Assembly: GCA_035948415.1 (NCBI GenBank)
Contig: DASZJD010000068.1
Span: forward strand, 1 to 34,475
Source: Acidimicrobiia bacterium
Lineage (GTDB): Bacteria; Actinomycetota; Acidimicrobiia; IMCC26256; PALSA-555
Reading direction: 5' to 3'
DNA length: 34,475 bases
Shown here piece by piece: positions 3,856 to 16,345 of this stretch. The first letter of the stretch is position 1; each line of letters starts with the position of its first letter. The notes under the pieces are model-generated. The model saw only the letters and a list, made by a program, of their open reading frames with translations, ran no database searches and was not told the origin of the DNA. The translations under genes and the position numbers were made by a program.

Positions 3856-5283
3856 GTGGCCGCGGTGTTAGCGATCCGCAACGCCCCGGGACGTCTCGCC
3901 CTGTTCGCGGCCGCGCTGGCGGCCGCGTGCGCCGCGGCCGTGGCCGGCCAAGGCCTGTGGCTGCTCGCGGTGCTCGCGATCGTGCCGGTCGCGTTGGCGA
4001 TCTACTTCCGACCGCAACGCGGCATCCTCCTCGTCGCCGCGCTCGCGCCCTTCAACGGCTTGCTGCTGATCGTCCAGGTGCCCGGGTTCGCGAGGGGATG
4101 GAAGGAGGCGCTCGTCGGCGCCTCGCTGGCGGCCACGTTCGTGTGCCCGCGGTCGGCCCGCGGGGCGCGAGGTCGGAGCCTGCCCCGATGGCTGCCGGCG
4201 CTCGCCGGCCTCGTGGTCGTCGCCCTGCTGTCAGCGGTGTCCATCGGAGGGGACCAGGCGCTGCTCGGGCTGAAGGTCAACCTCTACTACGTGCTCGTCG
4301 CGGTCGCGGTGTGGCGCGCCCCGCTCGACCAGCGAGAGCGCGACCGGCTCGTCACGATCCTGATGGCGACCGGCTTCGTGTGCTCGGTGATCGGCCTGGC
4401 CCAGCAGGCCCTCGGCGACGTCCGCCTCAACGACCTCGGCTACCAGTACAACAGCACGATCCGGTTCTCCGGTGACTTCCTGCGCTCCTTCTCGACGTTC
4501 GACCAGCCGTTCCCCTTCGCCCTCTTCGTGATGGTCACGCTCCTCGTGGGCATCCCCGTCGCGCTCGAAGACCCGACCCGCGTCCGCAACCGTGTCTTCC
4601 TGCTCGCCACGCCGATCTACCTGCTCGGGATCCTCTCCGCCCTCGTGCGTGCCGCCTGGCTCGGGCTGGCGGTGGGCCTGCTGTACCTGGCCTTTCGGCG
4701 CTACCGGGCGCTGCTGTGGTTCATCCCCCTCGCCGTGGTCGCCTTCCTGCTCGTGGCCGGGCCCGTCTCCTCCACGCTGCTGTCCTCGACGAGCCTCCAA
4801 GCTCGGACCCAGGGCTGGCAGGGCGCGATCCAGCAGGTCGAGGCCCACCCGCTCGGCGTGGGGATCGGCTCGGCCGGCGCGGTCGCCGAGCGGCTGGCCG
4901 GGGCCGCCAGCAAGTCCGCCTACCAGCCGGACAACTACTACTTCAAGACCGTCTACGAGCTGGGCGTGCTCGGGCTCTGGATGCTCGTCCTGCTCCTGAT
5001 CGGGATCTTCCGGGCCGTGCACGTCGGCGCCGCCCGGGCCCGGGCGCCCGACCGGGCGCTGCTGGACGGGATCGCCGCGGTGGTGCTGGCGTCGATGGTG
5101 GCGAGCCTCGTCGACTCCTACTTCGAGATCTTCCCGCTCGACCTGACGTTCTGGCTGCTGATCGGTCTCGCCGCCGCGATGGTGGCCCGCACCCGCGGGT
5201 CCGGCACCGAGCTCGTCGCGGCCGCGTCGCCGACCTCGGCACCGGCCCCCGTCGACGCGGGGGCGCCGCTGTCCCCGACGTGA
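3856..5283 (+). CDS. wzy: O-antigen ligase/polymerase-like membrane protein (Wzy-type)
   Basis: A 475-residue polytopic membrane protein with about eleven or twelve hydrophobic segments, starting with FAAALAAACAAAVAGQGLWLLAVLAIVPVALA broken only by a short loop. The second half has the Wzy_C/O-antigen-ligase pattern: an outer loop with RTQGWQGAIQQVEAHPLGVGIGS, then the DNYYFKTVYELGVLGLW helix. Such proteins polymerise undecaprenyl-linked repeat units on the outer face of the membrane, or ligate glycans; between glycosyltransferases and the flippase, polymerase is the likelier role. The C-terminus is an Ala/Pro-rich cytoplasmic tail. The start is GTG 3856, preceded by a -10-like hexamer and no ribosome site. 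Wzy sequences are very divergent, so the call rests on topology, the loop motif and neighbours. Confidence 0.8.
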   Translation: MAAVLAIRNAPGRLALFAAALAAACAAAVAGQGLWLLAVLAIVPVALAIYFRPQRGILLVAALAPFNGLLLIVQVPGFARGWKEALVGASLAATFVCPRSARGARGRSLPRWLPALAGLVVVALLSAVSIGGDQALLGLKVNLYYVLVAVAVWRAPLDQRERDRLVTILMATGFVCSVIGLAQQALGDVRLNDLGYQYNSTIRFSGDFLRSFSTFDQPFPFALFVMVTLLVGIPVALEDPTRVRNRVFLLATPIYLLGILSALVRAAWLGLAVGLLYLAFRRYRALLWFIPLAVVAFLLVAGPVSSTLLSSTSLQARTQGWQGAIQQVEAHPLGVGIGSAGAVAERLAGAASKSAYQPDNYYFKTVYELGVLGLWMLVLLLIGIFRAVHVGAARARAPDRALLDGIAAVVLASMVASLVDSYFEIFPLDLTFWLLIGLAAAMVARTRGSGTELVAAASPTSAPAPVDAGAPLSPT

Positions 5284-5362: not shown

Positions 5363-6388
5363 ATGCTCGCGGCGCGCCGCCACGTCCTCTTCAACCCCGG
5401 CCCGGTCAACCTCGACGACTCGATCAAGGACAACCTGTTCAACGTCGAGCTGTGCCATCGGGAGCCGCGATTCGACCAGCTCGCGGCCAGCATCCGCGCT
5501 CGCCTGCTCGCCGCGGTCGGCTTCCCGGCCGCCGACTTCGCGCTCAGCCTCATGCACGGCTCGGGGACGCTCGCGGTCGACGCCGCGCTGGTGTCGCTGG
5601 TCCGGGGGCGGGTGCTCGTCGTGAACAACGGGCTCTACTGCGATCGCATCCTCGAGACCCTGTCCCGCGTCGGCGCGGCGGAGCCCGTGGACCACCCCGT
5701 CGGCCTCGGGGCTCCCGTCGACCTCGACCGTCTCGACGCCGCGCTCGACGAGACCGAGCCCGCATGGGTGGCGGTGGTCCACCACGAGACCACGACCGGG
5801 CTGCTGAACCCGCTCACGGACATCGCCGCCCGGTGCCGGCGTGCCGGCGCCCGGCTCTTCGTCGACGCCGTCAGCTCGCTCGGCGCCCACGCCATCGACC
5901 CGCGCGCGGACGTCGTGTGCTTCAACAGCAGCAAGTGCCTCGAGTCGCTCCCCGGCATCGCTGGGGTCCTCTGGCGGTCCGGGCTCGAGCTCCATCGGAC
6001 CGTCCCGGTCCTGGACGTCGGGTCCTACGCGCACGGGATGGCGAGCACCCCCAACGTGCAGGCGTACGTGGCCCTCGACGTCGCCCTCGACCTCCTCGGT
6101 TCCGAGGACCGCCCGGCCCGGTACGAGCGGCTCGCCCGGCACGTCTGGCGACGGGGGAGCGAGCGGTTCGAGCCGCTCCTCGACGAGCGGCACCGGTCGC
6201 ACGTGCTCACGTCGTTCCGACTCGGTGGCCGCACGATCGATGAGCTCTTCACCCGGGCCTACGAGCACGACATGGTGATCTACCCCGGCCAGGCCCAGCT
6301 GCGCGACGAGATCTTCCGCGTCGCCAACATGGGTGCCCTGATGAGCGAGGCGACGATCGACGAGCTGTTCGAGGTGCTCGCGCCGTAG
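5363..6388 (+). CDS. Class V aminotransferase, 2-aminoethylphosphonate:pyruvate transaminase-like
   Basis: A 341-residue PLP enzyme of fold type I. The start FNPGPVN, the CHRE element (residues 32-35), HETTTGLLNPL, VDAVSSLGAHAID and SSKCLESLPGIAGV follow the order of PhnW/AepX-like 2-aminoethylphosphonate transaminases; Lys191 in SSKC is the probable Schiff-base lysine. In phosphonate biosynthesis this type of enzyme converts phosphonoacetaldehyde to 2-aminoethylphosphonate. Inside a polysaccharide locus it could supply an aminoalkyl phosphonate substituent, but no PEP mutase or phosphonopyruvate decarboxylase is in the window. A general alanine-glyoxylate-type aminotransferase is the alternative. 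A good ribosome site (GAGGAG) precedes the ATG by about 10 nt. It converges with the minus-strand GT4 33 bp downstream. Confidence 0.75.
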   Translation: MLAARRHVLFNPGPVNLDDSIKDNLFNVELCHREPRFDQLAASIRARLLAAVGFPAADFALSLMHGSGTLAVDAALVSLVRGRVLVVNNGLYCDRILETLSRVGAAEPVDHPVGLGAPVDLDRLDAALDETEPAWVAVVHHETTTGLLNPLTDIAARCRRAGARLFVDAVSSLGAHAIDPRADVVCFNSSKCLESLPGIAGVLWRSGLELHRTVPVLDVGSYAHGMASTPNVQAYVALDVALDLLGSEDRPARYERLARHVWRRGSERFEPLLDERHRSHVLTSFRLGGRTIDELFTRAYEHDMVIYPGQAQLRDEIFRVANMGALMSEATIDELFEVLAP

Positions 6389-6421: not shown

Positions 6422-7564
6422 TCACGGCCGCGAGCGGCCGCCCCGACTGCTGGCGGCCTCACCGAGGACCTGGACCAGCGCCGCGGTGGTCCGGTCGATG
6501 TCGTACCGAGCCTGGGCCCGCTCCCGCCCGCGTGCGCCCATCGCCGCCGCGGCGGGCCCGTCGTCGAGGAGGCGCCCGATCGCGGCGAGGAGGGCCTCGT
6601 CGTCGTCGTCGTCGACGAGCAGCCCGGTCACCCCGTCCTCGACCATCTCCGGCACCGCCCCGACGCGCAGCGCCACGACCGGCGTCGCCGCCGCCATCGC
6701 CTCGAGCACCGCGTTCGGGGCCTGGTCGATGGGGCTCGGGAACACGAAGGCGCGGGTGCCTCGCAGCAACGTCGTCAGCCGGGCGTCCCCCGGCGTGAAG
6801 TCTCGGAACACCCGGACGCCCGGCAGTCGGGGCACCGGGTCGGTGGTGACCAGGTTCAGGAGACACCGCGCTGAGAGGTGGCGCTGGTGCAGCTCGACGA
6901 GGCGCCAGCCGCCCTTCCGCTCGAGCTGGTGGCCGACGAACGTGATCGCGGGCAGCGCCTCGGGCGGCGGCGCCGGTGGGAGCGGGTCCGGCACCGGGAC
7001 GCCGAAGGGGAGCAGGCGGAGCTTGTCGTCGGGCACGGCGTACGTGCCGCGCAGCGACCGGCCCACCCACGCGCTGTTGGCGACGATGAGCGTCGCGGCC
7101 TCGTACACGCGGCGCTCGAACCACTGGGTCAGCGGCAGCACCCGTGGCGTCCACCGGGTCGGGCTCCGATGGGCCAGCCGGTACGCGTTCAAGGCGTTCG
7201 TCGAATCGAGCGACACGACGGTCGCCGTGCCTCGCAGCTGGTCGGCGCTGAGCAGCGCGGCGTTCTGGGTGTAGACGTGCACGACGTCGAAGGCGCCGGC
7301 CCGGCTCGCCAGGCGCCGACGGACCGTGGCGCTCAGCGCCAGCTGGGCCCGCAGCGGCTGCAGGTCGAGGTCGCGCCGCGCCAAGCCGGGCACGCTGGCC
7401 CCGAGGAATCGACGCGCCAGACCCGGCGGCGGCACGTGCAGGAACGAGGGCTCGACCTCGGGATGGCGACGAAGCGACCGCTCGAGGTTCAGATGGACCG
7501 TCGCGTGCCCGCCGATGTTCTCGTTCACGAACAGCACCCGCAACACGCCGTCGGCCGCCACCAT
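6422..7564 (-). CDS. GT4 family glycosyltransferase
   Basis: A 380-residue GT-B glycosyltransferase on the strand opposite to the rest of the locus. The ATG at 7564 is chosen because it lies just before the first Rossmann strand (VLRVLFVNENIGGHATVH) and 7 nt after a TACCGT -10-like element; the reading frame extends about 30 codons further upstream but that part is low-complexity. Other motifs are FDVVHVYTQNAAL, ITFVGHQLERKGG in the donor domain, and a D-x7-E element (DQAPNAVLE) where most GT4 enzymes have E-x7-E. A run of five acidic residues (LVDDDDDEALL) is present near the C-terminus. It probably acts on the same glycan but under a separate promoter, so it may add a side branch or be regulated separately. 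Confidence 0.87.
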   Translation of the reverse strand: MVAADGVLRVLFVNENIGGHATVHLNLERSLRRHPEVEPSFLHVPPPGLARRFLGASVPGLARRDLDLQPLRAQLALSATVRRRLASRAGAFDVVHVYTQNAALLSADQLRGTATVVSLDSTNALNAYRLAHRSPTRWTPRVLPLTQWFERRVYEAATLIVANSAWVGRSLRGTYAVPDDKLRLLPFGVPVPDPLPPAPPPEALPAITFVGHQLERKGGWRLVELHQRHLSARCLLNLVTTDPVPRLPGVRVFRDFTPGDARLTTLLRGTRAFVFPSPIDQAPNAVLEAMAAATPVVALRVGAVPEMVEDGVTGLLVDDDDDEALLAAIGRLLDDGPAAAAMGARGRERAQARYDIDRTTAALVQVLGEAASSRGGRSRP

Positions 7565-8052
7565 CGCGCCAACGGTAGAGGCTGCGCGGTCGGGTCGAGC
7601 CGAACGTGGAGCTGGCGTCGCCGTCGCCGAACCCGAATCGCGATCACCACCCACGCCGACGAGCAGCGGCAGCGGTGGGCCTGGTCACGGCCGGTTGGGC
7701 CGCTGCCGCCCCGCGCTGTGTCGCGGCGAGCACCGGCCGCGCCGCCCGACGGCCGCTCGGCCCTCGGGCCGCCGGGGCGGGACCGCATGCGGCCTCGAGC
7801 CGGGCCCCCAAAACCGGCTCCGGCGGGGCGGTCTGAGGCCGTTGCGGAACGGACCTCAAGCAGGGCGTCGACCACGCCGAACTCACAGCGAGATATGGAG
7901 ACTGGCGGGTCCGGGAGCCGGATCGTCGCGCCCCGATCACCTCGGGGCGGGCCGTCCCCGGGGGCAGCCGGGGTCGAGCCCGCGGTCGGGTGGCGAGGGA
8001 ACGCCCGCGGTGGCCCGGTGTCACCGCGGCCGACTGGCGCGCGCGCGTGGCG
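7565..8052. other. 488-bp divergent intergenic region with clustered hairpins
   Basis: This is the only gap over 300 bp in the window. I see no convincing gene in it. It holds the minus-strand -10-like element at 7572-7577. Four potential stem-loops lie within about 115 nt: 7834-7858 (10 pairs, one bulged A, GCGG loop), 7864-7878 (5 pairs), 7908-7924 (7 pairs including one G-T) and 7929-7949 (8 perfect pairs, 5-nt loop). A comparatively AT-rich spot (GAGATATGGA, about 7890-7899) sits between the second and third. It could be a structured leader of the flippase gene or an RNA. I could not match it to a known riboswitch class, and high GC favours chance hairpins. Confidence 0.4.
7572..7577 (-). 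promoter_or_regulatory. -10-like element for leaderless minus-strand GT4
   Basis: Read on the minus strand, TACCGT ends 7 nt before the ATG at 7564. The same hexamer at the same distance precedes the acyl-CoA mutase gene at 27068. Confidence 0.45.
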
Positions 8053-10527
8053 ATGGCGATGACGGCGTCGCTGACCCAGACCGACCGGGGGCAGGTCGAG
8101 CCGCGGCCCGTCCACGGTCACGGCCTCATGGCGAACACCGGCGCGCTGTTCCTGAGCCGCATCATCATCGCCGCGCTCGGGTGGGCCGGGACGATCATCA
8201 TCATCCGGAGCCTCTCCCACACCGCGTGGGGTGAGTACGCCTTCGTCTTCAGCTTCCTGTCGATGCTCGCCATCGTGTCGAACATCGTCAACAGCCGCGT
8301 GGCCCTGCACGGCATCCTCGGCGAGGACAGCGAGCGATTTGCCGGCACGTACGTGTTGCTGCGCGGCGCGCTGGGTCTGCTCGCGTACGTCCTGGCGTTG
8401 GGGTTCGCGGTCGTGGCCGGCTACTCCTCGACGGTCGTCGCGGCGACGGCGGTCGGAGGCATCACCGTGCTCGTGGCGACGCCTTCGGTCGGGCTCGACG
8501 CCATCTTCACGGTGTACATGCGCATGGACCGCGTGGCCGTGGCGGCAGTCCTCGGCCAGGTCGTCCAGTTCCTCCTCACGGGCGCGCTGGCGCTCCTCGG
8601 CGGCACGGTCGTGCTGTTCACGATCCCGGCCGTCGTCTTCGAGGTGGTCGCGATCCTCTGGAAGCTGCGCGGTCTCCGTGGGCTCCAGCGGGTGCGGTAC
8701 GTGCCGGACGTGCGGCGATGGGGCAAGCTGCTCAAGGCCTCGATCCCGATCGCGATCGGCGCCGGCGCCGCGACCTTCTACTACAGCCTCGACTCGGTCA
8801 TGCTGTCGAAGCTCGACACCTTCCGCGCCGTCGGCACGTACGGCATCGCCTACAAGTTCGCCGGCATCGTCGGGTTCCTCCCCTGGGTCCTCTGCGGGGT
8901 CCTCCTCGGCCTCCTGGTGCGCGCCTGGCCGAACCATCCGGACGAGTTCTTCCACGCGCTGCGCCGCGCCACCGCGGCGCTGTTCGTCATCTCCCTGCTG
9001 ATCGTGATCGAGTTCGTGCTGTTCGCTGGACCCGCGATCCGCCTGCTCTACGGCGCCAACTACGCCGCCGCGGCTGGGGCCACGCGACTCGTGATCGGCG
9101 GCGAGTGCCTCGGCTTCTTCACGACCCTCGGCGTCACCGTCTTCGCCGCGGTCGAGCGGAACCGCTTCTACCCCGTCGCGGCCGTCGCCGGGCTGCTGGT
9201 GAACTTCGCGCTGAACCTCGTCGTGATCCCTCGGTACTCGTACCACGGCGCGGCGTGGGTCACGCTCGGCACCGAGCTGCTCGTCGCCACCATCATCTGG
9301 GTGCCGCTGCTGCGGCTCCTCGGTCGCAGCCCGCTCGCGGGCTCGGTGCTCCGAAAGGCCGCCGCGATCGTCGCGGTCACGCTGGCGGTCGGCTACGAAG
9401 CGAACCGCGTCGTCTGGTGGCCGGCCACCGCGGTCCTCATCGCGGTGGTCTTCGTCGTCGGCCTCCACCTGGCGCGGGTCCCGGGCGAGGGTGGGCTCAT
9501 CGCCCTGTTCCGGGACGACGAACCGGGGCCCGTGGGTCCCGCCGGCGATCCGGAGGTCGGCGCCCCGGCCCCGTCCGACCGGGCCGGCGACCGGCGGCCG
9601 GAGGCAGCGAGCACCGGGGCGGCGCGCCCGCGCTCCCGGGGCCTCGCCACGGTCCGCCGGGACGTCGGGCGCGGGACCGGCGCGCTCGCGGCCGCCCGCC
9701 TGCTCGTCGGGGGCTGCGTCCGGGCTCGGGGCGCGGTGGTGCTCGGCTACCACGACGTGCACGACGACCCCGAGCACGTCACCGACCTCCTCGCCGCCCC
9801 GGCCCGCTTTCGCGCTGACCTGCTTCACGCCGAGGCCTGGGGCCTTCGGATCGTCGGCCTCGGCGAGCTGTGCGATCGGGCCGAGGCCGGCGCGCCGCTC
9901 GACGGCCTCGCGGCGGTGTCGTTCGACGACGGCCTGCGGGGCGTCACCGACCACGCGGTGCCGATCCTGCTCGAGCTCGACCTCGCGGCCACGGTCTTCG
10001 CCGTGTCCGGGGCCTCCGGCACCGCGCCGGGGTGGTGGCAGGGGGCCGGGCCGGTCATGACCGACCGGGAGCTCGTCGAGCTGGCGGCCAGCGGCGTCAC
10101 GATCGGCTCGCACAGCGTGACGCACGTCGACCTGCCGAGCCTCGACGACGCCACGCTGGCGCACGAGCTCGCCGACTCTCGGGCCCGGCTCGAGGACCTC
10201 GTCCAAGCGCCCGTCGACCTGCTCGCCTACCCGTACGGCCATCACGACGCCCGGGTGCGCCGCGCCGCCCGCGACGCCGGCTACCGCGCCGCGTTCACGT
10301 TCCTGAACGGACGGTGGACCGGCGACGTCGACCGGTTCCAGATCCCGCGGCTGACCATGAGCGGCCAGTCGACGCGCCGCCTCGCGTACCAGCTGGCCCG
10401 ACCGGCCTCGTCGTGGCCCGACCACCAGCTCGACGCCGTGACCCGCGACGCGCCCGCGCCCGTGACCACCTCCGGACCGTCGAGCGAGCCCGCCGCAGTC
10501 CACGGTCCGCCACCAGCCGAGCCCTAG
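8053..10527 (+). CDS. Wzx-like flippase fused to a CE4 (NodB-type) polysaccharide deacetylase
   Basis: An 824-residue two-domain protein. Residues ~25-475 form a MOP/Wzx polysaccharide flippase with about 14 hydrophobic segments (for example SRIIIAALGWAGTIIIIRSL, FYPVAAVAGLLVNFALNLVV). It would move undecaprenyl-linked repeat units across the membrane. After an ~80-residue Pro/Gly/Asp/Ala-rich linker, residues ~560-790 form a CE4 deacetylase: SFDDG (Asp625, Asp626), HSVTH (His687, His691) and YPYGHHD, the metal-binding and catalytic set. The frame has no stop between domains. With 14 segments both ends would face the cytoplasm, odd for a CE4 enzyme. ATG 8053 is chosen; ATG 8059 and GTG 7990 are alternatives, none with a clear ribosome site. 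The TAG stop overlaps the next gene's -10-like element. Confidence 0.85.
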   Translation: MAMTASLTQTDRGQVEPRPVHGHGLMANTGALFLSRIIIAALGWAGTIIIIRSLSHTAWGEYAFVFSFLSMLAIVSNIVNSRVALHGILGEDSERFAGTYVLLRGALGLLAYVLALGFAVVAGYSSTVVAATAVGGITVLVATPSVGLDAIFTVYMRMDRVAVAAVLGQVVQFLLTGALALLGGTVVLFTIPAVVFEVVAILWKLRGLRGLQRVRYVPDVRRWGKLLKASIPIAIGAGAATFYYSLDSVMLSKLDTFRAVGTYGIAYKFAGIVGFLPWVLCGVLLGLLVRAWPNHPDEFFHALRRATAALFVISLLIVIEFVLFAGPAIRLLYGANYAAAAGATRLVIGGECLGFFTTLGVTVFAAVERNRFYPVAAVAGLLVNFALNLVVIPRYSYHGAAWVTLGTELLVATIIWVPLLRLLGRSPLAGSVLRKAAAIVAVTLAVGYEANRVVWWPATAVLIAVVFVVGLHLARVPGEGGLIALFRDDEPGPVGPAGDPEVGAPAPSDRAGDRRPEAASTGAARPRSRGLATVRRDVGRGTGALAAARLLVGGCVRARGAVVLGYHDVHDDPEHVTDLLAAPARFRADLLHAEAWGLRIVGLGELCDRAEAGAPLDGLAAVSFDDGLRGVTDHAVPILLELDLAATVFAVSGASGTAPGWWQGAGPVMTDRELVELAASGVTIGSHSVTHVDLPSLDDATLAHELADSRARLEDLVQAPVDLLAYPYGHHDARVRRAARDAGYRAAFTFLNGRWTGDVDRFQIPRLTMSGQSTRRLAYQLARPASSWPDHQLDAVTRDAPAPVTTSGPSSEPAAVHGPPPAEP

Positions 10528-10540: not shown

Positions 10541-11980
10541 ATGGACCTCATCGAGCACTTCCGCGTCATTGGCCACAACTGGTGGCGGATCTTGCTCGTG
10601 TCGGCCGTCGTGGCCGGAGCCGCCTACGCCTGGAGCTCGCAGAAGGCGAGCGTGTACCAGGCGAACGCGTTCCTGAACGTCACCGCCGGTGGTTCGCAGA
10701 ACGGCACCGTCTCGGCGAAGGACCAGACCCCGTTCCTCGCCTCGACGTACGCGCAGCTCGCCACGACGAAGCCGGTGCTGGCGCGAGCGGCGCAGCGGAG
10801 CGGCCTCGCGATCAGCGAGAAGACGGCCGAATCGCGGGTCAGCGCGTCGGCGTCGAACGGGCTCGGGTTCGTGACGATCACCGCGAAGGGACCGCATCCG
10901 GAGGACGCCAGCCGCCTCGCCAACGCGGTCGCGCAGTCGCTGATCGTCGCCGTGAACGCCCAGCAGGACCAGGCGATCCGGGAGGACCTGGCGCCGGTCA
11001 ACCAGCAGATCCAGGGCCTGCAGTCCCAGCTCAACGTGCTCGCTGCCGACGCGTCCCAGCGCAGCGACCTCCAGGCCCGCTACACCGCGCTGCTGCAAGC
11101 CGCGGTGGCTCGGCAGACGGCACCCCGGGACCGCGTCGACGTGGTGTCTCCGGCGGCGGCGCCGAGCGGCCGGATCTCGCCGAAGCCGATCACGAACTCG
11201 GTGCTGGCGTTCGTGATCGCGATCATCATCACGGCCGAGCTCAGCGTGGCCCTGCGGGCGTGGGGGGACCGGTTCTCGGCCGCCGAAGACCCGGAGGAGG
11301 TGGCCCGCTTCGTCGGGCTCCCGCTGCTGGCGGCGGTGCCGGCCGGGTCCGAGCACGAGTTCATCGAGGCCTTCCGGACCCTCCGCACCAACCTCTTGGT
11401 GCTGCCGCGCGCCGACCGGCCGCGCTCGGTGGCCATCGTCAGCGAGAACGCCAACGCCGGCAAGTCGCTTGTCTGCATCAACCTGGCGCGCTCGGCGGTG
11501 GGGCTCGAGAACCAGGTCGTGCTCATCGACGCCGACATGCGCCGCCCCTCGCTGCATCACCAGCTGCACGTGCCGCTCCAGCCGGGTCTCAGCGAGGTCC
11601 TGAACGGGCGCGACGTCGACGCCGCGCTGCACGAGGTCGGCGCCACCCCGGACCTGCGCGTCCTGCCGAGCGGTTCACCGTCGAAGGACCCGGCCGGCGT
11701 GCTGAGCGGCCGCAGCTTCGGCCGGCTGGTCCAAGCCTTCGCCGGTCCCCGACAGCTCGTCGTGGTCGACACGCCCCCGGCCCGGCTCTTCGCCGACGCC
11801 CTCAACGTCTCGGCGCAATGCGACGCCACCGTGTTCGTGGTCGACGTGAAGACGAGTCGGCGTCGCAGCGTCCGCCGCTCGATCGACTCCTTCCAACGGT
11901 CGGGCGCCACGGTGGTCGGCGTGGTGGTGAACCGGGTCGCGGCCCGCCCGGCCGACCACTACTACGAGTACGCCCGCTGA
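10541..11980 (+). CDS. Polysaccharide co-polymerase with BY-kinase-like domain (Wzz/CpsD fusion)
   Basis: A 479-residue membrane protein. The N-terminus has the Wzz pattern: a short cytoplasmic part, TM1 (WWRILLVSAVVAGAAYAW), an extracytoplasmic coiled region, and TM2 (SVLAFVIAIIITAELSVAL) around residues 219-237. The C-terminal cytoplasmic part is a BY-kinase-type ATPase: EAFRTLRTNLL, P-loop at residues 301-309, Walker A' IDADMRR (Asp330, Asp332) and Walker B VVVDTPP (Asp410). Such proteins set chain length and phosphorylate their own Tyr cluster. Two features are unusual. The P-loop reads SENANAGKS, whereas most family members have a PGEGKS-like core, and the C-terminal Tyr cluster has only three tyrosines (YYEY). 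Kinase activity is therefore likely but not certain. The nearby tyrosine phosphatase fits as its partner. Confidence 0.88.
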   Translation: MDLIEHFRVIGHNWWRILLVSAVVAGAAYAWSSQKASVYQANAFLNVTAGGSQNGTVSAKDQTPFLASTYAQLATTKPVLARAAQRSGLAISEKTAESRVSASASNGLGFVTITAKGPHPEDASRLANAVAQSLIVAVNAQQDQAIREDLAPVNQQIQGLQSQLNVLAADASQRSDLQARYTALLQAAVARQTAPRDRVDVVSPAAAPSGRISPKPITNSVLAFVIAIIITAELSVALRAWGDRFSAAEDPEEVARFVGLPLLAAVPAGSEHEFIEAFRTLRTNLLVLPRADRPRSVAIVSENANAGKSLVCINLARSAVGLENQVVLIDADMRRPSLHHQLHVPLQPGLSEVLNGRDVDAALHEVGATPDLRVLPSGSPSKDPAGVLSGRSFGRLVQAFAGPRQLVVVDTPPARLFADALNVSAQCDATVFVVDVKTSRRRSVRRSIDSFQRSGATVVGVVVNRVAARPADHYYEYAR

Positions 11981-12003
11981 TCCACCGCCCGCTACGGGTG
12001 GAT
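11980..12003. terminator. Hairpin between convergent genes
   Basis: ATCCACC and GGTGGAT form a 7-bp stem around a 10-nt loop. It starts at the last base of the plus-strand stop (11978-11980), and the minus-strand stop (11992-11994) lies in the loop. There is no T-tract, so it may be a bidirectional terminator or an RNA-stabilising end. Confidence 0.35.
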
Positions 12004-13119
12004 GTCGCTGGTGAAGGTCGCCATCGCCGGCTTCGGGCTGCCGTCGTTGTGGAGGAGCCCGAAGTTGTCCTCGCGGTTGGTGAGGTCGGTGCCCTGGTCG
12101 CGGAGCCCGTAGTAGAAGAACGGCCCGGTGAACGAGGCCCAGTTGCTCCACCCCTGGAGGTACTCGGTCACGAACTGCGCCTGCGTCGCCTCGCTGACCG
12201 CGTTGGCGGAGGTGCCGGTCCAGGCGCCGGCCTCGGTCCCCCACACGAGCTTGCCGGCGTCACCGTTGTTGACCATGACGTTGTGGACATCGACGGTCTG
12301 CTGGAAGGCGTTCCAGGACGCGACGGTGGACGGCCCGTACGGCATGCCGGTGTAGGGGTGGTGCGCGACGGCGTCGAAGGCGCCGCCGCCGCCGTCGGCG
12401 TAGATCGCCTGCAGCCAGGCCGCCGGCGCGTCGGCGCCGTCCATCGGGCTCGTCCCGCCGGTCATCACGGTGGCGCCGGGATCCACGGCCTTGATCGCCG
12501 CGTCGGCGCGGCGCAGGAGCACGGTGTAGGCGGCGGGGTCCGGGCTCGGCTGCCAGAACGCCGGGTTGTTCGGCTCGTTCCAGATCTCGTAGGCCTGGAC
12601 GCCCTGCGCCCCGTAGCGCTGGGCGGCGGCCCGGGCGTACGCGGCGAAGTCATCGGGGTTGGTCGGCGGGTTCTTGTCGGTCGTGCCGCCCGGGCGGGCC
12701 CACGCCGGCGTGTAGGCCAGCGTGGCCAGCACCTTCAGGCCCCGGGCCCGGGCCGCCGCCACGCCGCGGTCCAGCACGGCCCAGTTCCAGGCGTTGGGGC
12801 CGTTGCCCTGCACGGCGCTCCAGTCGAAGTCGAACCGAACCCAGGTCGCCCCGGTGGCGCGGATGGCGTCGAAGTCGGCCGCCAGCTGGGCGTCGCTCTC
12901 CCAGAGCGGGTTGTAGGCCTCGGCCAGCCCGACCCGACTCCCGGCGATCACGCCGCCCGACGCGCTCGTCGGCGGCGGGGGAGCGGGGGCGGGCGGCGGG
13001 CCCGGGGCGGGCCCGAACGGCCCGCAGGCGCCGAGCAGGAGGGCGCCGGCCACGGGAGCGACCGCGAGCCAGACCCGTCGACGTCGGCCCGACCGTGCCC
13101 GCCTCCGCCAAACCGCCAC
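11992..13119 (-). CDS. Lipoprotein glycoside hydrolase, GH39/GH5-like (PslG-like)
   Basis: A 375-residue predicted lipoprotein. A basic n-region and hydrophobic core run into the lipobox LLGAC with Cys32, followed by a Pro-rich tether (residues 34-50). The rest is a clan-A-type TIM barrel: WVRFDFDWSAVQ, LKVLATLAYTPAWA, YEIWNEPN with Glu182 as the likely acid/base, HHPYTG, and VWGTEAG with Glu296 as the likely nucleophile. In Pseudomonas the GH39 enzyme PslG trims or releases exopolysaccharide made by a similar machine, and this enzyme probably cleaves or edits the local polymer on the outer face. It is encoded opposite to the biosynthetic genes and converges on the wzz/BY-kinase gene with 11 bp between stops. 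The GTG at 13119 is the only start that keeps the signal peptide. Confidence 0.82.
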   Translation of the reverse strand: MAVWRRRARSGRRRRVWLAVAPVAGALLLGACGPFGPAPGPPPAPAPPPPTSASGGVIAGSRVGLAEAYNPLWESDAQLAADFDAIRATGATWVRFDFDWSAVQGNGPNAWNWAVLDRGVAAARARGLKVLATLAYTPAWARPGGTTDKNPPTNPDDFAAYARAAAQRYGAQGVQAYEIWNEPNNPAFWQPSPDPAAYTVLLRRADAAIKAVDPGATVMTGGTSPMDGADAPAAWLQAIYADGGGGAFDAVAHHPYTGMPYGPSTVASWNAFQQTVDVHNVMVNNGDAGKLVWGTEAGAWTGTSANAVSEATQAQFVTEYLQGWSNWASFTGPFFYYGLRDQGTDLTNREDNFGLLHNDGSPKPAMATFTSDIHP

Positions 13120-13196: not shown

Positions 13197-13856
13197 GTGG
13201 CGGGCCGGGGCGCGGAGCGGGCTCCGTACACTCCGCCCATCCGCGTCCTCGTCCTCTGCACCGCCAACGTCTGTCGGTCCCCGATGGCCGCCGGCCTCCT
13301 CGCCCAGCGGCTCGAGGAGCGCGGCGTCGACGTCGAGGTGGCGTCGGCCGGCCGCCTCCCCGGGGGGCGCCCGTCGACCCCCGAGAACGTGGCGGTCATG
13401 CGCCGGCGCGGCGTCGACCTCGCCGGCCACCGCAGCCGGGCCGCCACGCCCGCCGACGTTCGGGACGCGGACCTTGTCCTCGGGATGGCCCGCGAGCACG
13501 TGCGGGACGCCGTCACCCTGGCCCCGGAGTCGCTGCCCCGGGCGTTCACGCTCAAAGAGCTGGTCCGCCGGGGCGAGGCGATCGGGCCGCGCCGGGCCAC
13601 CGAGCCCCTCGACGGCTGGCTGGCCCGGGCCGCGGCCGGTCGCCGCGCTGCGGACCTGCTCGGGTCGTCGGCCGACGACGACGTGCCCGACCCGATCGGC
13701 GCGCCGATCGCCCGCTACGAGAGCGTGGCGGCCGAGGTGACGGCGCTCGTGACGCGCGCCGTCGAGCTGGCGTGGCCCGAGTCCCCGCGGGGGCCGGGCG
13801 GCCGCGACGACGCGATGGGTCCGAGCGACCGGGCCGGCCGCCCCGACGGCCGTTGA
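13197..13856 (+). CDS. Low-molecular-weight protein-tyrosine phosphatase
   Basis: The phosphate-binding loop CTANVCRSP (C-x5-R-S) follows the first strand IRVLVL, and the late DPIG element supplies the general-acid Asp, as in LMW-PTP/Wzb/YwlE enzymes. These dephosphorylate protein tyrosine (or arginine). Next to a polysaccharide locus with a BY-kinase, the natural substrate is the kinase Tyr cluster. Family members start only a few residues before the first strand, which here falls on ATC 13239. I give the nearest upstream canonical codon, GTG 13197, as a conservative start (219 residues); ATG 13128 and the in-frame start at 13095 are further out. The C-terminal ~35 residues are Gly/Arg/Asp-rich and look disordered. 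The gene also sits upstream of glyA, a common actinobacterial neighbourhood. Confidence 0.8.
13227..13232 (+). promoter_or_regulatory. -10-like element inside the annotated start region of the phosphatase gene
   Basis: TACACT, the best -10 match among the leaderless candidates, lies 6 nt before an in-frame ATC at 13239. That ATC is where low-molecular-weight phosphatases normally begin. If this is the promoter, upstream GTG and ATG codons are not transcribed from it. Confidence 0.45.
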
Positions 13857-15184: not shown

Positions 15185-16345
15185 GTGCTCGGCTACTCGA
15201 TCGTCGGGGCGGTTGGGGCCAGCACCACCTTCATCCTGGCCTTCCTGATGCGGTGGCTGGCACCACGGATCGGGGCCATGGCGACGCCGGGCACCCGCAG
15301 CGTGCACGCCGAACCGATCCCGTCGCTGGGCGGCGCCGCGATGTTCGGCGGGTTCCTCGCCGCGATGGCGGTCGCCTCGCAGCTCAACCAGTTCCAAGGG
15401 ATGTTCGCCGACTCGTCCGAGCCCCTCGGCATCCTGCTCGGTGCCGGGGTGATGTTCCTCGTCGGCGCGGTCGACGACCTGCGGGAGGTCTCCCCACCGG
15501 CGAAGGTCGCCGGCCAGATCCTGAGCGCCAGCCTCCTGTCGCTCTTCGGCGTGACGATGCTGTACTTCCGCGTCCCCTTCGCCAGTTACCAGTACATCGT
15601 CCTGTCCCCGGACCTGGCGCCGCTCGTCACCGTCGTCGCGGTCGTGCTGCTCGCCAACGCGCTGAACCTCATCGACGGCCTCGACGGGCTCGCGGCCGGG
15701 ATCGTGCTGATCGCCGGGACGGCGATGTTCCTGTACGCCGACCGCCTCTTCAAGGCGGGGCTGCTCGAGGGCTCGAACATCGGCCCGCTCATCGCCGTCA
15801 TCGCGGTGGCCGTCTGCGCCGGGTTCCTGCCCCACAACTTCAACCCCGCCCGCATCTTCATGGGCGACGCGGGCGCCATGTTCCTCGGGCTGCTGATGGC
15901 GGTGACCACGATCACGATCGGGGGCCGCACCGCCGACGAGTTCAGCGGTCAGACCTACTTCTTCTTCGCGCCCCTCCTCATCCCGATCGTGATCCTGGCC
16001 GTCCCGGTGGTGGACACGGCGTTCTCGTTCGTCCGGCGGGCGGCCGCTCGCCGTCGGGTCTTCGTCGCCGACCGGGAGCACCTCCACCACCGGCTCATGC
16101 GCCTCGGCCACGGGCCCCGTCGCTCGGTGGTCATCCTGTGGCTCTGGACCGCGCTGCTCTCGGCGGTGGCCCTGATCCCCACCTACACGAACCGCGGCAA
16201 CGCCCTCGTGCCCCTCGCCCTGGCCGGTCTGGCGCTCCTCCTCTTCACCTACTTCCATCCCGGTCTCCGCAGCGCCCGACCGGAGCCCCCCGAGGACGTC
16301 ATCGACCTGGAGGAGCGGCGGCGGGCCGCCGGCCAGGCCCAGTAG
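15185..16345 (+). CDS. wecA: WecA/TagO-type UDP-sugar:undecaprenyl-phosphate phospho-sugar transferase
   Basis: A 386-residue polytopic membrane enzyme of the MraY/WecA superfamily that transfers GlcNAc-1-phosphate (or a similar sugar phosphate) to a polyprenyl phosphate. Motifs in order are HAEPIPSLGGAAMF near residue 40, the Asp-Asp pair in VDDLREVSPPAK, NALNLIDGLDGLAAG, FNPARIFMGDAGAMFLG and the HLHHRL loop, with about ten or eleven membrane segments. This matches the rfe/wecA gene next to the atp operon in mycobacteria, where it starts cell-wall linker synthesis. It is a different initiation enzyme from the WbaP-like one at the window start, so two lipid-linked glycan pathways coexist. 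The GTG at 15185 lies 6 bp after the glyA stop. Confidence 0.92.
   Translation: MLGYSIVGAVGASTTFILAFLMRWLAPRIGAMATPGTRSVHAEPIPSLGGAAMFGGFLAAMAVASQLNQFQGMFADSSEPLGILLGAGVMFLVGAVDDLREVSPPAKVAGQILSASLLSLFGVTMLYFRVPFASYQYIVLSPDLAPLVTVVAVVLLANALNLIDGLDGLAAGIVLIAGTAMFLYADRLFKAGLLEGSNIGPLIAVIAVAVCAGFLPHNFNPARIFMGDAGAMFLGLLMAVTTITIGGRTADEFSGQTYFFFAPLLIPIVILAVPVVDTAFSFVRRAAARRRVFVADREHLHHRLMRLGHGPRRSVVILWLWTALLSAVALIPTYTNRGNALVPLALAGLALLLFTYFHPGLRSARPEPPEDVIDLEERRRAAGQAQ

Follow-up and report, generated by a model that had tools for sequence, protein, structure and literature searches.

The closest described systems to the locus considered here are found among the CE4 deacetylases and the MOP flippases. 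ArnD is a cytosolic CE4-type enzyme that deformylates undecaprenyl-P-Ara4FN, a lipid-linked substrate, before flipping, and PgaB and IcaB are described as extracytoplasmic. A Pseudomonas Wzx carrying a C-terminal GFP was functional and fluorescent, and its C-terminus is thus cytosolic (PMC3412221). In the mycobacterial MurJ, the 14th helix is followed by a cytosolic region (PMC6180346), and TacF, another MOP flippase, monitors phosphocholine on its cargo (PMC13385700). No fusion of an MOP/Wzx flippase with a CE4 deacetylase was found in the literature searched, and the sequence-only reading of this DNA likewise knew of none.

The window is the whole stretch of DNA analyzed, 34,475 nucleotides of contig DASZJD010000068.1 from an uncultured Acidimicrobiia bacterium (assembly GCA_035948415.1). 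It holds one gene in which the two functions are combined (Table 1). Both the flippase and the deacetylase are of known kinds; the novelty is the joint architecture. Their identities, proposed earlier from the letters alone, are supported computationally by the recognition of both folds with Foldseek and, for the deacetylase, by a match to PF01522.

Table 1. Features of the fusion gene and of its surroundings in the window
Feature	Position	Strand	Basis
Wzy / O-antigen-ligase-type polymerase	3856..5283	+	PF04932
GT4 glycosyltransferase "GTd", divergent neighbor	6422..7654	-	Pfam; beside the stand-alone deacetylase gene in many relatives
Fusion gene (Wzx-type MOP flippase, linker, CE4 deacetylase), 824 aa	8053..10527	+	Open frame; GC3 continuity
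Flippase domain, residues 23-474, 14 membrane helices, both ends predicted cytosolic	8119..9474	+	AlphaFold, Foldseek, hydropathy/charge, NF041871
Disordered Pro/Gly/Asp/Ala-rich linker, residues 488-538	9514..9666	+	pLDDT < 50; GC3 0.90-0.97
Helix, residues 529-551, former N-terminus of the stand-alone deacetylase	9637..9705	+	Models; aligns with stand-alone N-termini
CE4 deacetylase domain, residues 561-790 (~529-790 with N-terminal helix)	9733..10422	+	PF01522, model, Foldseek
CE4 motif 1, F624-D625-D626	9922..9930	+	Invariant in 22 rows
CE4 motif 2, H687-SVT-H691, metal ligands	10111..10125	+	H687 and H691 invariant in 22 rows
CE4 motif 3, AYPYGHHD (725-732), PgaB/IcaB/BC0361 style	10225..10248	+	Y726, P727 and G729 invariant
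Disordered C-terminal tail, residues 791-824, mostly absent in stand-alone relatives	10423..10524	+	pLDDT < 50; alignment
Wzz / tyrosine autokinase, start 13 nt past the fusion stop	10541..11980	+	Pfam, NCBIfam
Glycoside hydrolase (GH, cellulase-like), recurrent cluster member	11992..13119	-	Pfam; neighborhoods
WecA/MraY-type initiating sugar-phosphate transferase	15185..16345	+	PF00953, E 3.6e-34

The AlphaFold model of the 824-residue chain, built from ten aligned sequences, places fourteen membrane helices within residues 23-474, followed by disorder (488-538), a helix and the CE4 barrel. Hydropathy also gives 14 segments, the approximate number first proposed, and the modeled count lies within the 12-14 helices of the MOP fold. 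Foldseek matched the flippase half to MurJ (E 4e-10, TMt 0.73), WzxE (E 2e-7, TMt 0.71) and MATE. The NCBIfam model Wzx_EPS (NF041871) scored E 6.7e-13 and 48 bits, far under its strict cut-off of 800, and Pfam Polysacc_synt reached 18.8 bits, under its gathering score. Genes for Wzy, Wzz and an initiating sugar transferase are co-encoded in the window. An identity as MurJ was rejected, as TIGR01695 has no match in the window and the MurJ of this genome is located on another contig (C94). No second close copy of either half was found elsewhere in the genome.

The C-terminal half matches PF01522 with E 1.5e-22 and 80 bits against a cut-off of 23, and a separate model of it has a pLDDT of 89. 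Its closest matches in Foldseek are BC0361 (1.9e-16) and IcaB (4.1e-16), with BA0330, PplD and PgaB also found (E 1e-16 to 1e-14). The NodB-type barrel and the PF01522 match place it in CE4. The catalytic and metal-binding set (FDD and HxxxH) is complete, and activity is predicted; Asp625, Asp626, His687 and His691, singled out earlier, are all present and are invariant in 21 stand-alone relatives. The third motif aligns with AYxFGHVD of BC0361, and its YPxG form is typical of the BC0361/IcaB/PgaB group. The NCBIfam models for PgaB, IcaB and HfsH gave 39, 38 and 32 bits against cut-offs of 322, 248 and 400, below the equivalog level for each. No curated family covers the signal-less CE4 deacetylase that is paired with GTd in relatives. 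The linker rich in Pro, Gly and Asp is present, but is shorter than the ~80 residues first estimated. Its disordered part (488-538, pLDDT < 50) is ~50 residues long, as residues ~529-560 form the deacetylase's own N-terminal helix, a region that the alignment also shows in most stand-alone relatives.

The frame of the gene is a single one, as had been noted, and runs without interruption to a TAG stop. GC at third codon positions (GC3) is 0.90-0.97 in every segment across the linker; only beyond the stop does it drop to ~0.5. The codon-usage score over residues 486-540 is 0.07 per codon in the fusion frame versus <=0.04 in the other five, a preference kept weak by the high Ala, Pro, Gly and Arg content of the linker. 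From residue 466 up to the first deacetylase strand, the GTG at 9532 is the only in-frame start candidate, and no clear ribosome site was seen upstream of it; separate translation of the deacetylase from this codon is a formal possibility. The ancestral start codon of the deacetylase has been lost, with none left near its site. Given the unbroken frame, the GC3, the codon score and the lack of a clear ribosome site before GTG 9532, the fusion is very probably real, with the caveat that it comes from one draft genome (98% complete).

The Wzz-kinase gene is probably on the same transcript as the fusion gene. Elsewhere in the exopolysaccharide cluster, an aminotransferase (5363-6388) is close to PhnW/AepZ, the 2-aminoethylphosphonate aminotransferase (TIGR03301, E 4e-58, below cut-off). 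Phosphonate decoration through this enzyme was considered and is unsupported, as the genome yielded no PEP mutase. A tyrosine phosphatase of the LMW type (13239-13856) lies in the same cluster as the autokinase. A serine hydroxymethyltransferase gene is found between the phosphatase and the WecA-like transferase, and ATP synthase genes follow.

Of the genomes searched, a single one carries the fusion; all relatives examined, within its own class and in Nocardioides, encode the flippase and the deacetylase as separate genes. No further case turned up in 12 genomes from the family, 58 from the order, 395 drawn from the class, 198 from a different order of that class, or another draw made across the class; these sets overlap. 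It was also absent from 67 loci obtained from a scan of 84,980 species genomes, which relied on two peptide patterns of the deacetylase only, so that distant fusions would escape it. The query for the contig scan was an alignment of joined flippase and deacetylase rows; a single-protein query gave no match. Long open frames at the flippases of some relatives (up to 1171 aa) were rejected as fusions, as they extend N-terminally or contain stops and are normal for DNA of 73% GC.

The two separate genes often lie within one exopolysaccharide cluster. In two loci (L072, L077), flippase, glycosyltransferase and deacetylase are in tandem, and the flippase stop overlaps the glycosyltransferase start (ATGA). 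In three others, L074 and L084 (Nocardioides) and L085, the flippase is upstream, followed by GTd with the deacetylase directly after it. In L037 and L073, GTd, deacetylase and GH form a block in the vicinity of the flippase, and in L066 the flippase and deacetylase are 14 kb apart within one cluster. GTd and the signal-less CE4 deacetylase recur as an adjacent pair (L075, L078, L079, L081, L083, L084, L085, L088), which spans Acidimicrobiia to Nocardioides and Mycolicibacterium. At one further locus (L071, 6892-8261, G118:C44), two CE4 matches in tandem are divergent from a distant Wzx-type flippase ~80 nt away.

In a tree of 28 flippases, that of the fusion groups with those of L072, L077, L073, L074, L084, L085 and G222 in a clade of ten members (100/99). 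This clade largely consists of flippases from deacetylase-bearing clusters. One genome holds two close flippases of the clade in separate clusters (L063 and L064; G410:C102 and C203), and a deacetylase is nearby in only one. The flippase of the fusion lies apart from those of its own order, which suggests horizontal acquisition of the exopolysaccharide cluster. In the window, GTd lies just ahead of the fusion on the opposite strand; the Wzz-kinase begins 13 nt after the fusion, and GH comes next. Judging from this order, GTd seems to have left a place between the flippase and deacetylase genes before these two merged.

With regard to the side of the membrane, the hydropathy profile gives 20 Lys and Arg in the would-be inner loops versus 8 in the outer loops, with 9 in just the loop that joins the two MOP halves. 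Signal peptides and membrane segments are both absent from the closest stand-alone deacetylases. The fourteen helices, the positive-inside charge and these signal-less relatives indicate that the deacetylase domain is most likely exposed to the cytosol, the compartment in which lipid-linked repeat units are assembled. This is the outcome that the sequence-only reading had expected from an even number of segments; its other option, 13 segments with action after flipping, is unsupported, as hydropathy and model both give 14. Its premise that CE4 enzymes usually work outside the membrane is fair for CE4 overall, but not for this subfamily. HfsH, weighed as a possible cytosolic precedent, was dropped, since the paper found on it does not say where it is located.

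The explanation that we consider rather probable is that neighbors in an operon were joined, and that a cytosolic CE4 deacetylase tethered to a Wzx-type flippase takes an acetyl group off the repeat unit on the inner side of the membrane, ahead of flipping. The two genes would have belonged to a single conserved exopolysaccharide cluster of actinobacteria, become adjacent and then merged. The product, as predicted from its sequence, would be a 14-helix flippase bearing an N-deacetylase on its cytosolic C-terminus through a flexible tether of ~50 residues. Cytosolic glycosyltransferases, including GTd, may assemble an undecaprenyl-PP-linked repeat unit that contains an N-acetylhexosamine. At the inner face of the membrane, the tethered deacetylase would strip off the acetyl group; its partner flippase would then export the unit, and Wzy would polymerize it under Wzz-kinase control. 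The tether may raise the local concentration of deacetylase and fix a 1:1 ratio. We infer the substrate class and the order of steps from CE4 chemistry, the membrane side and the gene cluster. Several observations count against this explanation. The fusion occurs in one genome and is kept by no relative, which leaves no evidence from conservation that joining the two proteins matters in itself. PgaB and IcaB, solved relatives of the fused deacetylase, are described as extracytoplasmic, some close flippases, such as the nearest one (G441), belong to genomes without a close deacetylase, and GTG 9532 makes separate translation a formal possibility.

Several alternatives can be weighed against it. 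The fusion could be an artefact, in which an error of base-calling or assembly removed the stop or frameshift that separated two genes; the source is a single draft assembly of 133 contigs, and no close relative has the fusion. This is very unlikely, as the high GC3 continues over the junction and a single erroneous stop should leave a normal second start, whereas none was seen at the ancestral site or, with a clear ribosome site, at GTG 9532. A neutral accident is possible, if the less likely account: adjacent cluster genes would have lost a stop, and the chain would act as two separate proteins, coupling bringing no advantage. In favor of this account, every relative gets by with separate genes, the disordered linker resembles two old gene ends with filler, and the fusion occurs in one genome. 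Against this, the conserved residues are intact in both halves and the codon bias is strong through the linker. The chain thus looks maintained as a protein, although coupling is still not required.

A deacetylase outside the membrane, trimming the unit or polymer after flipping, would accord with PgaB and IcaB, which are among its nearest solved relatives by fold and act extracytoplasmically. It is highly improbable in view of the fourteen helices, the positive-inside charge, the MurJ/WzxE fold and the stand-alone relatives devoid of signal peptides. Gated export, whereby the CE4 domain is a checkpoint and only deacetylated units pass into the fused flippase, is a stronger form of the preferred explanation and overlaps with it in probability. 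ArnD, which deformylates a lipid-linked sugar before flipping and whose structure is among the fold matches, lends it some plausibility, and TacF is a precedent for MOP flippases that can screen the decoration of their cargo (PMC13385700). However, no interface or allostery was seen here, the linker is flexible, and relatives operate this pathway with the two proteins apart, which means that physical coupling is not needed in general. Proximity and 1:1 dosage through a flexible tether, or a neutral fusion, fit the data as well as gating does. Gating is regarded as unlikely. A self-contained "trim-and-flip" machine, in which deacetylation licenses export, either as a requirement of the fused flippase or by passing the unit straight on to it, appears quite unlikely.

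A natural fusion is a strong hint as to which deacetylase serves which flippase, and on which membrane side. It points to deacetylation before flipping for the signal-less CE4 subfamily of actinobacterial exopolysaccharide clusters, among them one of a Nocardioides type strain that could be grown. Although it is a single instance, it points to the side and the reaction order for a whole subfamily of separate proteins. It also offers a single-chain construct for testing whether the acetylation of the cargo is sensed by a Wzx flippase.

Among known systems, ArnD works in the way proposed for the fusion: it takes an acyl group off a lipid-linked sugar at the inner face, prior to flipping. It differs in being a separate protein that works with another type of flippase, and is a distant fold match only (8t0j, E 2.7e-5). 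The PgaB/IcaB/BC0361/HfsH group has the fold and motifs of the fused deacetylase and gives weak NCBIfam matches (PgaB, IcaB, HfsH), whereas the fused domain is under all curated cut-offs, has no signal peptide and is joined to a flippase. The stand-alone deacetylases beside GTd in exopolysaccharide clusters, such as those of Nocardioides rubriscoriae (L084) and L077, are 44-54% identical and have the same cluster partners, but are separate genes. The Wzx/MOP flippases (WzxE, MurJ, TacF; NF041871) are similar in fold, in the cytosolic C-terminus and in clustering with Wzy, Wzz-kinase and an initiating transferase; unlike them, the fusion bears an enzyme domain. Its 14 helices compare with 12 described for Wzx and 14 for MurJ and TacF (PMC13385700). 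In architecture, the mycobacterial MurJ comes closest; in it, a 14-helix MOP flippase is likewise followed by a linker and a cytosolic C-terminal domain, although that extra domain is a regulatory pseudokinase and not, as predicted for the fusion, an enzyme that acts on the cargo (PMC6180346).
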